The translations under genes and the position numbers were made by a program. Of a stretch of DNA of 64,000 nucleotides, positions 30,801-62,558 are shown piece by piece. How positions within the stretch are numbered: the first letter of the stretch is position 1; every line of letters begins with the position of its first letter. The notes beneath the pieces were generated by a model. The model was not told where the DNA came from. It saw only the letters and a program-made list of their open reading frames with translations, and ran no database searches. The DNA comes from Clostridiales bacterium (lineage in GTDB: Bacteria > Bacillota > Clostridia > UBA1381). The stretch lies in assembly GCA_029219585.1 (NCBI GenBank), contig JAQXTR010000011.1:1-64000 (forward strand), written 5' to 3'.

Positions 30801-30829
30801 TTGTAATTTAGTGAATTATGTGTTATAAT
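30801..30829 (+). promoter_or_regulatory. Promoter of the structured RNA ahead of recQ
   Basis: TTGTAA (30801-30806), 17-base spacer, TATAAT (30824-30829). Transcription would start near 30836. Confidence 0.75.
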
Positions 30830-30835
30830 CTAGGT

Positions 30836-31036
30836 AAGTTGAGAGTGCAGCTTGTGCGAACTGCTCCAAACCACTTAAAGCTTGTAAAAAATTAACCGCA
30901 CACTGAAACAGCCAATAAGATTTAATCGGACTGCATTAGCAGTCACACCATCCTTTTTTTCATATGCCCTTGTCTGAAAAGACAAGGGTCCCCCTAAAAA
31001 TAATGCAGTCCGGAAAAACGGACTGCTTTTTGTTTT
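30836..31036 (+). ncRNA. Structured RNA or switch-like leader with intrinsic terminator, upstream of recQ
   Basis: About 200 nt from its own promoter to a U-tract, with no credible ORF. 5' part: CAG-n2-TGTGCG can pair with CGCACACTG (about 30850-30903). 3' part: hairpin 1 (GACTGC, loop ATTA, GCAGTC; 30929-30944), then ACACCATCC, seven T and CATATG. Hairpin 2 follows (CCCTTGTC with GACAAGGG, 30967-30988), then TCCCCC. The terminator (GCAGTCCG with CGGACTGC, 31005-31026) ends in a T-tract. An alternative 12-bp helix (30927-30938 with 31001-31012) would exclude both hairpin 1 and the terminator. The central module is repeated at 62446-62511. The class is not one I can name; Rfam families such as Clostridiales-1 should be compared. 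Confidence 0.7.
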
Positions 31037-31063: not shown

Positions 31064-32656
31064 ATGCCTGATGCAGAACAAATAACAACGGCAAGAAGGA
31101 TGCTTAAGCAATATTTCGGACATGACAGCTTCCGGCAGGGGCAGGAGGAGCTTATATCGGCGCTTATTGACGGACGCGATGTGCTGGGGATTATGCCTAC
31201 AGGTGCCGGAAAATCCATGTGCTATCAGATACCGGCTCTTATGGCTGAGGGTGTAACACTTGTTATATCACCGCTTATTTCGCTTATGAACGATCAGGTT
31301 ACGGCACTTGTTCAGTCCGGTATCCGCGGTGCGTATTATAATACATCTCTTAACGAGGGGCAGAGAAAAAAGGTTTGTGAAAATATGCTTAAGGGTGTAT
31401 ATAAAATTATATATGTATCGCCGGAGCGGCTTGAAACGGATTTTTTTCTATCGGTATGCAGCCGTATGAACATATCCTATATTGCAATAGATGAAGCGCA
31501 TTGTGTATCGCAGTGGGGGCAGGACTTCCGGCCGAGCTATCTGAAAATCATGAGCTTTATAGATAAGCTCCCCAAGCGCCCCGTCATCGGTGCGTTTACT
31601 GCAACGGCAACGCGCGAGGTGCGCGATGATATTGTAAACATTCTGCAGCTTGACGATCCGTTTGTAATCACTACCGGCTTTGACAGACCGAATCTGTATT
31701 TTGAGGTGCGAAGACCATCGTCAATGCGTGATAAGTTTGATGAGCTGCTGGACATCCTTGATGATCACGAGGGTGAAAGCGGAATTATATACTGCTCAAC
31801 GCGCAGGGCGGTTGATGAGGTATATGAGGGGTTGTGTTCGCTGAGAAAGAATGTTACAAGGTATCATGCGGGACTGTCAAGTGAGGAAAGAAAGAAAAAT
31901 CAGGAGGATTTCATTTTTGACCGATGTCCTGTGGTGGTTGCGACAAATGCGTTCGGGATGGGGATAGATAAGTCAAACGTGTCCTTTGTCATTCACTATA
32001 ACATGCCCAAAAATATAGAAAACTATTACCAGGAGGCAGGCCGCGCGGGGCGTGACGGAGAGCCTGCTGACTGCATTATGCTGTATATGCCCAAGGACAT
32101 ATATACGATAAAATATTTTATAGATAATACGGATAACAATGACGAGCTCACGGCAGAGCAGAGGAAAAATATTCAGAAGCTGGATATGAGACGGCTTAAT
32201 AAAATGGTTGATTATTGTAACACGTCCGGATGCTTAAGAGCGAATATCCTGCGGTATTTCGGCGAGCACTCGCTGCTTGAGTGCGGCAACTGCTCCTCCT
32301 GCAATGCTGCGGCAAAGCGCAGGGAGAAGCGGGAGAAAATCACATTTGCAAAAGCAAAGGCTGCGATTGAAGGACAGCAGCCAAAGCGTGATAAAAAACC
32401 TGCAAGAACACCGGCGGTTCTCTCGGATGCGAAGGAAAGGGAGCTGTTTGAGAAGCTCAGGCTTGTGCGTCTTAAGCAGAGCAGAATACAGGGTGTTCCG
32501 CCGTATGTCATTTTCTCCGACAAGACAATTATTGACATATGCAAGCGTCTGCCGCAGACGTATGATGAGCTGCTGGAGGTTGACGGCATAGGCAGAGCCA
32601 AAGCGGAACGCTACGGAAGAATGATAATAAACGAGGTAAAGCATTTTGTAAAATAG
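31064..32656 (+). CDS. recQ: ATP-dependent DNA helicase RecQ, short form
   Basis: A 530-residue 3'-5' helicase. Walker A is [14 protein letters not shown] (about residues 45-58), the DEAH box is [19 protein letters not shown], and the arginine-finger region [12 protein letters not shown] is present. A four-cysteine zinc site (about 387-412: GCLRANIL...ECGNCSSC) follows. After this comes a Lys/Arg-rich linker and an HRDC domain ([14 protein letters not shown] to the end). The winged-helix (RQC) part normally found between zinc site and HRDC appears to be missing, giving 530 instead of about 590-610 residues. It lies behind a terminator-bearing RNA leader, which may attenuate it. AAGGAG precedes the ATG. 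Confidence 0.93.
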
Positions 32657-49637: not shown

Positions 49638-50195
49638 ATGAGAAAAAATAAGACAAGAGATTTATGCCTGTGCGCTGTGTTTGCGGCGCTTACGGCGGTG
49701 GGAGCGTTTATTAAGATTCCTGTTCCGGTATGTCCGTTCACTCTGCAGCTGCTGTTTACCACGCTTGCAGGACTGCTGATAGGGAAGAAATTAGGCGCGC
49801 TGAGTGTTGCGGTTTATGTTATCATAGGTCTGCTGGGTGTTCCCGTATTCACGCAGGGAGGCGGCTTCGGATATGTTTTGCAGCCAACCTTCGGCTATCT
49901 CATCGGATATATAGCGGGAACATATCTTACAGGCGCGATTGCACAAGGAAGTAAGGAGCCCACGTTTTTAAGACTGCTTGCTGCATCTTTGGGAGGACTT
50001 CTGGTAGTATATCTTTTCGGTATGATTTATCTGTATATTATATGCAATTATGTGCTTGATGCGGCGTATACAGTAGGATACGTTGTGCTATACTGTTTTG
50101 TGCTGGCAGTGCCGGGGGATATTGTGCTTTGCGGTGTTGCATCTGTGATAGCAAAGAGATTGCGTCCGGTTCTTATGAAGGGAGAAATCATGTAA
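49638..50195 (+). CDS. bioY: Biotin transporter S-component BioY
   Basis: A 185-residue membrane protein with six hydrophobic segments. The BioY motifs TAVGAFIKIPVPVCPFTLQLLFTTLAGLLIG (about residues 19-49) and LLGVPVFTQGGGFGYVLQPTFGYLIGYIAG (about 65-94) are present. It captures biotin, alone or as the S-unit of an ECF transporter. It is followed without a gap by bioD and bioA behind a BirA-type operator, so uptake and the last synthesis steps share control. AAGGAG supports the ATG. Confidence 0.96.
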   Translation: MRKNKTRDLCLCAVFAALTAVGAFIKIPVPVCPFTLQLLFTTLAGLLIGKKLGALSVAVYVIIGLLGVPVFTQGGGFGYVLQPTFGYLIGYIAGTYLTGAIAQGSKEPTFLRLLAASLGGLLVVYLFGMIYLYIICNYVLDAAYTVGYVVLYCFVLAVPGDIVLCGVASVIAKRLRPVLMKGEIM

Positions 50196-50885
50196 ATGTC
50201 CAGGGGTATATTTATTACAGGCACGGGTACGGATGTGGGCAAGACCTACGTTACTGCACTTGTTGTCAAAAAGCTGCGCAGCTGCGGTGTTGACGCAGGC
50301 TATTATAAGGCTGCGCTCTCGGGTGCGGATGAGGATAACGGAGCTCTTATTCCGGGTGATGCAAAGTATGTTTGCGATATTGCCGGAATAAACGCGAATC
50401 CGTCGGATTGTGTATCATATATCTATAAAAATGCGTATTCTCCGCATCTTGCGGCTCTTATTGAAGGAAACCCTGTTGAGCCTGAGGTTATAAGAAAAGA
50501 TTTTGACAGGTCGTCCGAAAAATATGAATATATCACCGTAGAGGGCAGCGGAGGAATAATCTGTCCGATACGCTATGATAAGAAAATCATGCTTGAGGAT
50601 ATTGTTAAGGAACTGAAGCTTCCGACACTGCTTGTTGCGGATGCGGGGCTGGGCACAATAAATTCCGTGGTGCTTACGGTTTTCTATATGCTTCAGCACG
50701 GAATGCGTGTGAACGGAATAATATTTAACCGCTTTGTTGACGGTGATACAATAATGGAGGACAATGTTAAAATGGTTGAAGAAATGACCGGTATTAAGGT
50801 TATTGCCAAGGTACATAAGGGCGATACTGAGCTTGATATTGACGCAGATATTCTCAAGGGAATGTATGAGGAGGTACAGAAATGA
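50196..50885 (+). CDS. bioD: Dethiobiotin synthetase
   Basis: A 229-residue ATP-dependent enzyme closing the ureido ring to form dethiobiotin from DAPA. The P-loop is GTGTDVGKTYVTAL (about 8-21). The DAPA-binding lysine lies in YYKAALSG (typically YWKPVQTG), and EGSGGIICPI matches the EGAGG motif. The start follows the bioY stop directly, and the end overlaps bioA by four bases (ATGA). Slight drift in the lysine loop is noted but the overall site is intact. Confidence 0.93.
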   Translation: MSRGIFITGTGTDVGKTYVTALVVKKLRSCGVDAGYYKAALSGADEDNGALIPGDAKYVCDIAGINANPSDCVSYIYKNAYSPHLAALIEGNPVEPEVIRKDFDRSSEKYEYITVEGSGGIICPIRYDKKIMLEDIVKELKLPTLLVADAGLGTINSVVLTVFYMLQHGMRVNGIIFNRFVDGDTIMEDNVKMVEEMTGIKVIAKVHKGDTELDIDADILKGMYEEVQK

Positions 50886-52081
50886 TATGGTATCCGTATG
50901 AACAGCTGAAAACAATGAAGACACCTTATAAAATAATTGACGCTGAGGGAGTTTATTTATATACCGAGGATGCTAAGCTGATAGATTCCGTTTCGTCATG
51001 GTGGAGCGTTATTCACGGATATAAAAATCCGGTGCTGAATAATGCGATTATTGAGCAGACAGAGAAATTTGCTCATGTCATGTTAGGGGGACTTACCCAC
51101 GACCCTGTACAAAATCTGTCAGATAAGCTTGCAGAGTGGCTGCCGGGTGATCTTGACTACTGTTTCTTCTCGGATTCGGGAAGTGTCGGCGTTGAGGTGA
51201 GCTTGAAAATGGCGCTGCAGTATTACGTTAATAAAGGTGATTTGAAGCGTACAAAGGTTCTGGCTCTTACGCATGCCTATCACGGGGATACCTTCAAGGC
51301 TATGGAGGTAGGTGATGATGAAGACTATCATTTCATACTTGAGGCATACGGTGAAAAAAAGGACTGCATTCATATTCCGACGGAAATACCGGCTCTGGAG
51401 GAAGCGTTCAGGAAATATCACGAGGAGCTGAACTGCTTTATTGTTGAGCCGCTTTTGCAGGGCGCAGGAGGTATGAGAATGTATGATGTTTCGTTCTTAC
51501 GGCGTGCAAGGGAGCTTTGCGATGAGTATGGAGTGCTGCTTATATTTGATGAGGTTGCGACCGGATTCGGAAGAACGGGAAATCGTTTTGTTGCAGATCT
51601 TGTTCTGCCGGATATTCTTGTTCTTGGCAAGGCGCTCACGGGCGGCTATATCGGTCATGCGGTTACGGTTGCAAATCATAAGGTGTTTAACGGCTTCTGG
51701 TCTGACGCTCCGGAAAAGGCGCTTATGCACGGACCGACCTTTATGGGAAATGCTCTTGCGTGCAGTGTTGCGCTCAAATCCATTGAGCTTTTTGAAAACG
51801 GAAATTATATGGAGCGCATAAAGCATATAGAAGAAGTTACAAAGCGTGAAATGGGAGGCTTTAGTGCCCCCGGGATTAAGGAAATACGCATTATGGGCGG
51901 CTGTGTCTGTATTGAGGTATATGACAGCGGCGACATTAAGGGGTATCAGCAGTTCGCCTATGAGCGCGGTGTGTTTTCACGTCCGTTCCTTAACTATATG
52001 TATGCGATGGTTCCATATGTCATTAATGATGAACAGCTCCTTAAAGTTCTGAACACGATGAAGGAATGGTTCGCGAAATAA
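50882..52081 (+). CDS. bioA: Adenosylmethionine-8-amino-7-oxononanoate aminotransferase
   Basis: A 399-residue fold-type I aminotransferase making DAPA. BioA-like features are WYPYEQLK at the N-terminus, SVSSWWSVIHGY (substrate lid Trp residues), FSDSGSVGVEVSLKMA, HAYHGDTFKAMEVGD, IFDEVATGFGRTG, and the PLP lysine in LGKALTGGY. It is shorter than typical BioA (about 430) by trimmed loops. The operon ends here, with a terminator. No bioB, bioF or bioW is in this window. Confidence 0.93.
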   Translation: MIWYPYEQLKTMKTPYKIIDAEGVYLYTEDAKLIDSVSSWWSVIHGYKNPVLNNAIIEQTEKFAHVMLGGLTHDPVQNLSDKLAEWLPGDLDYCFFSDSGSVGVEVSLKMALQYYVNKGDLKRTKVLALTHAYHGDTFKAMEVGDDEDYHFILEAYGEKKDCIHIPTEIPALEEAFRKYHEELNCFIVEPLLQGAGGMRMYDVSFLRRARELCDEYGVLLIFDEVATGFGRTGNRFVADLVLPDILVLGKALTGGYIGHAVTVANHKVFNGFWSDAPEKALMHGPTFMGNALACSVALKSIELFENGNYMERIKHIEEVTKREMGGFSAPGIKEIRIMGGCVCIEVYDSGDIKGYQQFAYERGVFSRPFLNYMYAMVPYVINDEQLLKVLNTMKEWFAK

Positions 52082-61146: not shown

Positions 61147-62415
61147 ATGAAACATTTTGATTACAATGACTCAACGGATGTAGTTGTTTACGAAAATCAT
61201 GGCAGCAGTGAAAACAAGGCCGGCAAGAAACCAAAAACATGGCTTGTTGCTGTATCCTCGGCTCTCGCGGCAAGTATATTTACGGTAGGGATTACAACAG
61301 GTGTGCAGCATTTTTCAAAAACCGTGCCGCAGCTTGATACGGCTACAGCAGGTACGAATGTGTCAGATGACGGCAGCTCGGATGAAAACAGCACGGACAG
61401 TGCAACCACAGCAGCCTTTAAAAATAACGGAAAAGCTCTTACCGTGCCCGAGATTGCAACAAAGGTAGGTCCGTCGGTAGTGGGAGTTATAAACAAAACC
61501 ACGGTTCAGCCTCAGAAGTATTGGGATCCGTTTAACGGCAGATATTATTACGATACCGATCCTACACAGGGAGACGGAGGCAACATGGTAGAGCAGGGCT
61601 CAGGCTCGGGCATCATAATCAGTGAGGACGGATATATTGTTACCAATCAGCATGTTATTGACGGTGCGACAGAGGTTGAGGTTGTTTTAAATACCGGAAA
61701 CACATATGGTGCGAAGATTATCGGCCAGGACACAAAGACAGACCTTGCAGTGCTTAAGATAGAGCCGTCGGATGATGACAAGCTCACAGCTGCAGCTCTT
61801 GGTGATTCAACTACCGTCCAGGTAGGCGAGCTTGCGGTCGCAATAGGAAATCCGATGGGTATGGAATTTTCCGGCTCTGTAACGGCGGGTATTATAAGCG
61901 CCGTAAACAGAACCATGACCATAGATAACAGAACATATAACCTTCTCCAGACTGACGCTGCAATCAACGCGGGAAATTCAGGCGGTGCTCTTATAAATCA
62001 GTACGGAGAGGTAATCGGCATCAATTCCGTAAAGCTTTCAACAACAGGTGTTGAGGGTATGGGATTTGCAATTGCTATCTCAGAGGCAAAGCCGATTATA
62101 AACGACCTTATGGCTTCGGGATATGTGACAGGCAGGCCGCTTGTAGGAATCGGCATAACCGAAACACGCTACGGACTCTTCATCAGCTCAATCCGTGAGG
62201 GAAGCGGCGCAGAGAAAGCCGGACTTAAGGTTAATGATATGATACTTGAGGTTGACGGTCAGAAGGTGGCTTCGACATCGGAGGTAAATGAAATCCGCGA
62301 TAAGAAGAAGCCGGGAGATACAATGACCTTTAAGGTTCTGCGTGACGGTGAAACGGTGGAAATAAACGTTAAGCTTACCGAGGACGCAGCCTCAAAGACC
62401 GAAAACAAGAAGTAA
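61147..62415 (+). CDS. htrA: Membrane-anchored HtrA/DegP-like serine protease
   Basis: A 422-residue envelope protease: an N-terminal cytoplasmic part, an anchor (about 32-50), a Ser/Thr/Asp linker, the trypsin-like domain (about 95-300) and one PDZ domain (about 310-400). The catalytic triad is seen: His in YIVTNQHVIDGATE, Asp in KTDLAVLKIE, Ser in AAINAGNSGGALINQYGE. It degrades misfolded exported proteins. In Firmicutes it often answers a CssRS-type two-component system, not present here. AGGAGG precedes the ATG. It is followed by the second copy of the structured RNA module. Confidence 0.95.
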   Translation: MKHFDYNDSTDVVVYENHGSSENKAGKKPKTWLVAVSSALAASIFTVGITTGVQHFSKTVPQLDTATAGTNVSDDGSSDENSTDSATTAAFKNNGKALTVPEIATKVGPSVVGVINKTTVQPQKYWDPFNGRYYYDTDPTQGDGGNMVEQGSGSGIIISEDGYIVTNQHVIDGATEVEVVLNTGNTYGAKIIGQDTKTDLAVLKIEPSDDDKLTAAALGDSTTVQVGELAVAIGNPMGMEFSGSVTAGIISAVNRTMTIDNRTYNLLQTDAAINAGNSGGALINQYGEVIGINSVKLSTTGVEGMGFAIAISEAKPIINDLMASGYVTGRPLVGIGITETRYGLFISSIREGSGAEKAGLKVNDMILEVDGQKVASTSEVNEIRDKKKPGDTMTFKVLRDGETVEINVKLTEDAASKTENKK

Positions 62416-62445
62416 ACATTAAATAAGCAATTCAGTTTTAATTGT

Positions 62446-62558
62446 GGCTGTTGATCAGCCAATACCATCCTTTTTTTCATATGCCCTGCGGCATTGTCCG
62501 CAGGGTCCCCCAAAAGAGCGAAATGCGCCCCGATCCCCGGTGTGTTTCGCTTTTTTTG
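62446..62558 (+). ncRNA. Second copy of the structured RNA module, with terminator
   Basis: Hairpin 1: GGCTG (62446-62450), loop TTGAT, CAGCC (62456-62460). Then AATACCATCC, seven T, CATATG. Hairpin 2: CCCTGCGG (62484-62491), loop CATTGT, CCGCAGGG (62498-62505), then TCCCCC and an A-rich spacer. A terminator follows (GCGAAA with TTTCGC, 62518-62550, then seven T). The single-stranded blocks match the copy at 30.9 kb, while the stems differ by paired changes. It begins about 30 bases after the htrA stop. There is no own promoter seen, so it may be the 3' end of the htrA message. The gap 62416-62749 holds only this and the next promoter. Confidence 0.7.

Follow-up and report, generated by a model that had tools for sequence, protein, structure and literature searches.

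The window considered here, meaning the whole 64,000-nucleotide stretch of DNA that was analysed, contains two copies of a short sequence whose arms could pair and whose unpaired blocks are shared, and the question raised by this locus is whether they belong to an RNA family and, if so, what such an RNA would do beside the genes where it is found. The first-pass annotation, made from the letters of the window, had placed two copies of a structured module here, and both are present where it put them with all of the parts that it described. Copy A, together with its promoter and downstream neighbour, is composed of the following features:

30801..30829, + strand: sigma-A-type promoter of copy A (TTGTAA, 17-nt spacer, TATAAT)
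30916..30928, + strand: 5' conserved block of copy A, TAAGATTTAATCG, from the alignments
30929..30944, + strand: hairpin 1 of copy A, GACTGC-ATTA-GCAGTC, from the predicted fold, with 6 of 6 pairs covarying across the family
30947..30966, + strand: conserved single-stranded block of copy A, ACCATCCTTTTTTTCATATG, anti-SD/anti-AUG-like, from homologue searches and alignment
30967..30988, + strand: hairpin 2 of copy A, CCCTTGTCT-GAAA-AGACAAGGG, from the predicted fold and covariation
30989..30994, + strand: conserved TCCCCC 3' of hairpin 2 in copy A, from sequence and alignment
31005..31031, + strand: intrinsic terminator of copy A, with an 8-bp stem and T5
31064..32656, + strand: recQ, the conserved downstream neighbour of recQ-type copies, from domain matches and context

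Copy B and the protease gene that precedes it are arranged as follows:

61147..62415, + strand: htrA/degP-like protease (trypsin-like and PDZ), with copy B in the 3'UTR of its mRNA
62432..62444, + strand: 5' conserved block of copy B, TCAGTTTTAATTG, starting 17 nt past the htrA stop codon
62446..62460, + strand: hairpin 1 of copy B, GGCTG-TTGAT-CAGCC, from the predicted fold and covariation
62464..62483, + strand: conserved single-stranded block of copy B, ACCATCCTTTTTTTCATATG, from homologue searches and alignment
62484..62505, + strand: hairpin 2 of copy B, CCCTGCGG-CATTGT-CCGCAGGG, from the predicted fold and covariation
62506..62511, + strand: conserved TCCCCC 3' of hairpin 2 in copy B, from sequence and alignment
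62518..62557, + strand: intrinsic terminator of copy B, its loop bearing ATCCCC, with T7, from sequence and fold

HtrA and RecQ are identified by Pfam and NCBIfam domain matches that do not reach the NCBIfam equivalog cut-offs. The window also holds a tmRNA gene (311-665, - strand; Rfam RF00023, 180 bits) and a biotin cluster (49638-52081) in which BioY, a BioD-like AAA_26 protein and a class-III aminotransferase stand in a row.

The predicted fold of copy A comprises two hairpins and the terminator, its core giving a z-score of -5.6, and copy B with its terminator gives -6.2; in neither case did any of 200 shuffles fold equally well. These folds, like the sequences themselves, agree with the hairpin arms given for both copies by the first-pass annotation. 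The linker between the hairpins of copy A reads ACCATCC-T7-CATATG, and the 20-nt linker block is identical in the two copies. Conservation extends further 5' than had been annotated, to a block resembling (C/A)AG(T/A)TTTAATTG at 30916-30928 and 62432-62444.

As the annotation had suggested, a covariance model was built and searched against genomes of Clostridia. The first model, made from 16 copies, located the RNA in 42 of the 70 genomes that represent the window's bacterial family, and 25 genomes from other families of the same order gave no match; an improved model added two family genomes (G016 and G028), bringing the total to 51 copies in 44 of 70 genomes, spread over about 12 genera. The annotation's observation that the arms differ by paired changes holds across this set, in which all 16 predicted base pairs covary with changes at both sides of each pair, 98.1% of cells are paired and none of 500 shuffles attains the observed values, although the alignment was fitted to the covariance model and these counts thus lean towards it. 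Sliding the partner by one column lowers pairing to about 42-52%. Neither the magnitude of the effect nor the paired differences that the eye can pick out depend on the model-fitted alignment; hairpin 2 is an example, with CCCTTGCC/GGCAAGGG in most copies and CCCTGCGG/CCGCAGGG in copy B. Wobble cells are G-U in 23 cases and C-A in 3, which identifies the RNA as the product of the + strand.

The stems drift in sequence while the linker stays near-invariant. The block ACCAUCCUUUUUUUCAUA, predicted to be unpaired in copies A and B, is nearly invariant, and ACCATCCTTTTTTTCATA occurs exactly in 38 of 51 copies, in genomes whose adjoining HtrA proteins share only about 56-78% identity with that of the window. 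The RNA presents two covarying hairpins framing a 20-nt single strand, ACCAUCCUUUUUUUCAUAUG, with UCCCCC following and often more C-runs in the loops. Most copies have a terminator 3' of the core; their linkers, hairpin-2 loops and terminator loops repeatedly contain CCCC. In genus g15 (L073, L078 and L085, among others) the RNA is longer, at about 220 nt: additional hairpins and a further two CCCCC linkers precede its terminator. That the RNA exists and adopts this fold is, in our judgement, close to certain.

Of 101 related genomes, 33 contain the 20-nt block, and a public genome collection yielded 35 stretches with it, some two thirds being genuine Clostridia copies and the remainder chance; the named records bearing the motif, all of them Clostridia, include Candidatus Ornithomonoglobus and Lachnospiraceae bacterium MD329. 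Within the family, the RNA is missing from several genera (g3, g9, g12) despite the presence of htrA there. Nothing convincing was returned by the improved model from a sample of the class (391 genomes), the four matches outside the family with E-values of 0.001-0.01 being at about chance level. Two of these weak matches, L226 and L227, are antisense to ATGAAAAAA-type (MKK-type) gene starts, so the block closely resembles the complement of such starts. Two further matches in another clostridial family, L228 (G143:C1:103301-103395, - strand) and L229 (G323:C7:4592-4684, + strand), score 29 bits with an E-value of about 0.01 and present a promoter-driven, short RNA-like sequence in which ACAATCTTTTTTTCATTTCC, a hairpin, ACTCCC and a terminator follow one another; these may be an analogue or a very distant relative.

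At gathering score, Rfam 15 contains no family that matches the RNA in the window or in six relatives. Permissive scans gave sub-threshold matches only, the best being GcvB at 25.3 of 42 bits in L073, mostly through its C-rich tail. The annotation's view of a selected structured RNA of unnamed class, perhaps new, is supported by these scans and by the covariation, while its proposal that a described orphan family (Clostridiales-1, for instance) might match finds no support in the Rfam scan, provided that the library includes that family. In the open-access literature, we found neither an htrA 3'UTR sRNA described in Gram-positives nor the motif in Monoglobus. The family is apparently undescribed, although its kind, a small regulatory RNA derived from a 3'UTR in most genomes, is already known.

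Copy B is one of 43 copies, of the 51, that lie 3' of an htrA/degP homologue, at a gap of 8 to about 200 nt that is usually below 60 nt, the last htrA codons being overlapped in two. The remaining 8 copies, copy A included, form a second type with recQ downstream in 7 of 8, and this paralogue was encountered in a single genus, the window's own, where half of the sampled genomes carry it. In L118, the place 3' of the copy-A-type terminator that recQ occupies in relatives is taken by a sequence starting GTGTGTCGGGCATGG, which by eye resembles a group II intron. The first-pass annotation had described the two contexts in the window as unrelated; they are indeed unlike each other, but each proves to be a conserved genomic position, the htrA 3'UTR in one case and the region upstream of recQ in the other. 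These positions, the copy A promoter and a likely mode of action were all absent from that annotation.

No genome has more than two copies, and they occupy two conserved positions; a chance resemblance or a mobile DNA repeat, devoid of RNA function, can be given next to no credence. Two copies within one window might suggest a repeat, and a mobile repeat without covarying stems was the very outcome that the annotation had set against its own proposal, but conserved positions and stem covariation exclude it, and no match to the RNA was found in phage, plasmid and viral collections.

The two types also differ in how they would be transcribed. Each of the 8 copy-A-type copies is preceded, 48-87 nt from the core, by a TTG(N3)-17-TATAAT-like promoter that was recognized either from its pattern or by eye, whereas the 100 nt upstream of htrA-type copies contain no convincing promoter of their own. 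In 34 htrA-type copies, the next gene runs in the same direction 19 times and in the opposite direction 15 times, and an RNA of this type is therefore not the leader of a downstream gene. Taken together, the want of a convincing promoter and the genes on either strand mark copy B as the 3'-terminal part of the htrA mRNA. Copy A, with its own promoter, is a free-standing gene, from which transcription possibly reads through into recQ.

Copy A might instead be read as a recQ leader, similar to an attenuator or riboswitch, in which pairing of the hairpin-1 5' arm CGGACTGCA with TGCAGTCCG, the 5' arm of the terminator, would open the latter. The two arms form a perfect 9-bp complement in the window (30927-30935 with 31004-31012), this alternative pairing is predicted for a nascent transcript that ends with the 5' arm of the terminator, and recQ starts shortly 3' of the terminator in recQ-type copies. 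Against this, the pairing is as strong between species as within them (-13.4 and -13.0 kcal/mol, respectively), lacks covariation and is weak in L119 (-6.2), and downstream of the 43 htrA-type copies there is no consistent gene. For the htrA type, the genomic position argues against a riboswitch leader. We consider a recQ leader improbable. The riboswitch and attenuator classes are not supported, in view of the 19 to 15 split in the strand of the next gene in htrA-type copies and of the alternative helix without covariation in recQ-type copies.

The reading that we favour, and regard as probable, is that of a small regulatory RNA that originates in the htrA 3'UTR, has a paralogue with its own promoter in one genus, and acts in trans as a silencer. 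In most members, typified by copy B, the RNA would be the 3' end of the htrA mRNA, from just past the stop codon to the intrinsic terminator, from which it would be released and accumulate; transcription of copy A would start at a sigma-A-type promoter of its own, upstream of recQ, and stop at its own terminator. The linker holds UCCUUUUU, the complement of AAAAAGGA, and two CAU triplets, the complement of AUG, and such pyrimidine-rich single strands could pair with the purine-rich Shine-Dalgarno and start-codon regions of other mRNAs. Pairing would block translation of these mRNAs once htrA had been switched on, presumably by envelope stress, such that a single htrA transcript would yield both a protease and a silencer.

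Prediction of targets was carried out on 426 called genes in 573 kb of the window's own genome (other stretches plus the window). Across these genes, the block binds start regions more strongly than coding interiors (-9.2 versus -6.5 kcal/mol); relative to 60 shuffled seeds there is no enrichment, the mean of -9.2 comparing with -8.6 +/- 0.7 kcal/mol, and the top-20 targets are no better than those of shuffled seeds (means of -14.3 and -14.7). Genes with signal peptides do not pair better by duplex energy (p=0.60; 426 genes), and htrA and recQ are no better than background as predicted targets. When CAU is placed in register on the start codon, signal-peptide-like genes fit better (11.1 versus 9.5 of 20, p=1e-8), a comparison that is partly circular; the better fit stems from Lys-rich ATGAAA starts and shows only that such genes are possible targets. 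Anti-SD-like sites of the form AAAGGATGG-N-ATG were also counted in the 70 genomes and exceed a reversed control, yet such an excess is expected of any SD plus ATG pattern and the count was not used. One genome, G102, has 36 sites of the form AAAGGATGG(N)ATG, mostly AAAGGATGGCTGATTNNNATG, far more than the others, perhaps from another organism, as this genome is 8% contaminated.

The absence of target enrichment among these 426 genes counts against a trans-acting silencer, as does the failure to find an Hfq gene. It would suit a cis-acting 3'UTR element, in which the module and terminator protect the htrA mRNA or time its decay and the copy beside recQ is a 3' element that has moved and has no trans targets, and the location of most copies in the htrA 3'UTR beside a terminator is equally in keeping with it. 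However, stabilizing hairpins need no almost invariant unpaired block of 18-20 nt, nor would they explain a linker held constant while the stems drift or a promoter-driven, free-standing copy in eight genomes of the window's genus, and we think a cis element a good deal less probable than not. A protein-binding RNA, whose U7 and C-rich blocks would titrate or recruit an RNA-binding protein, accords with the near-invariant single-stranded U7 and UCCCCC and with the several C-runs per molecule in genus g15; against it, there is no candidate protein, Hfq was not found in the window's own genome (92% complete), and this reading appears unlikely. A role in protein binding or in mRNA stability would give conservation identical to that expected of a silencer.

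A more specific form of the trans-acting silencer, advanced here tentatively as a minority possibility, is that the htrA mRNA is bifunctional, encoding the protease and an Hfq-independent sRNA whose UUUUUUUCAUAUG strand covers the AUGAAAAAAA-type starts of secreted-protein mRNAs. If so, the inflow of exported proteins would be cut while misfolded ones are degraded, in a Gram-positive counterpart of CpxP/CpxQ, and the recQ-linked sibling RNA would be separately controlled. Should the broader proposal hold, the mRNA of a Gram-positive stress protease would also be the source of a translational silencer, and the near-invariant 20-nt strand would offer a direct handle for target finding. The family adds a well-supported RNA of gut Clostridia that is missing from Rfam.

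Among known sRNAs, the UCCC-type sRNAs of low-GC Gram-positives such as RsaE have C-rich single strands proposed to bind the SD (PMC4132741); the htrA-linked RNA shares these strands but matches no such family in Rfam. CpxQ of E. coli is an sRNA from the cpxP 3'UTR, through which one transcript gives two effectors (PMC4817254). The htrA-linked RNA likewise lies in the 3'UTR of an envelope-stress gene, its 43 htrA-type copies being placed, in the CpxQ manner, after the stop codon of a protein gene and before its terminator. It differs in sequence, in bacterial group and in host gene, which is htrA instead of cpxP; its release by RNase cleavage is putative, and Hfq was not found in the window's own genome. 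LhrC1-5 of Listeria form a multicopy sRNA linked to cell-envelope stress, in which UCCC in loops and linker blocks ribosome-binding sites (PMC4132741). The htrA-linked RNA is also multicopy with UCCC motifs in loops and linker, while its sequence and gene context are different and its induction by envelope stress is only presumed. The streptococcal csRNAs carry an anti-SD and anti-AUG sequence between two stem-loops, and in pneumococcus the CiaRH system that governs them has htrA under its control too (PMC3091779). Several similar copies per genome, a last stem-loop that serves as terminator and an unpaired anti-SD and CAU linker are common to both, ACCAU and UCCUUUUUUUCAU being unpaired in the predicted fold. 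The csRNAs, however, are free-standing genes of Streptococcus with CiaR-dependent promoters, whereas the present RNA resides mostly in the htrA 3'UTR of a clostridial family, where the 100 nt upstream of the htrA type show no convincing promoter; it has three helices and no sequence family matches it. By analogy with csRNAs or LhrC, the C/U-rich single strands of the present RNA are likely to base-pair with start codons and ribosome-binding sites.
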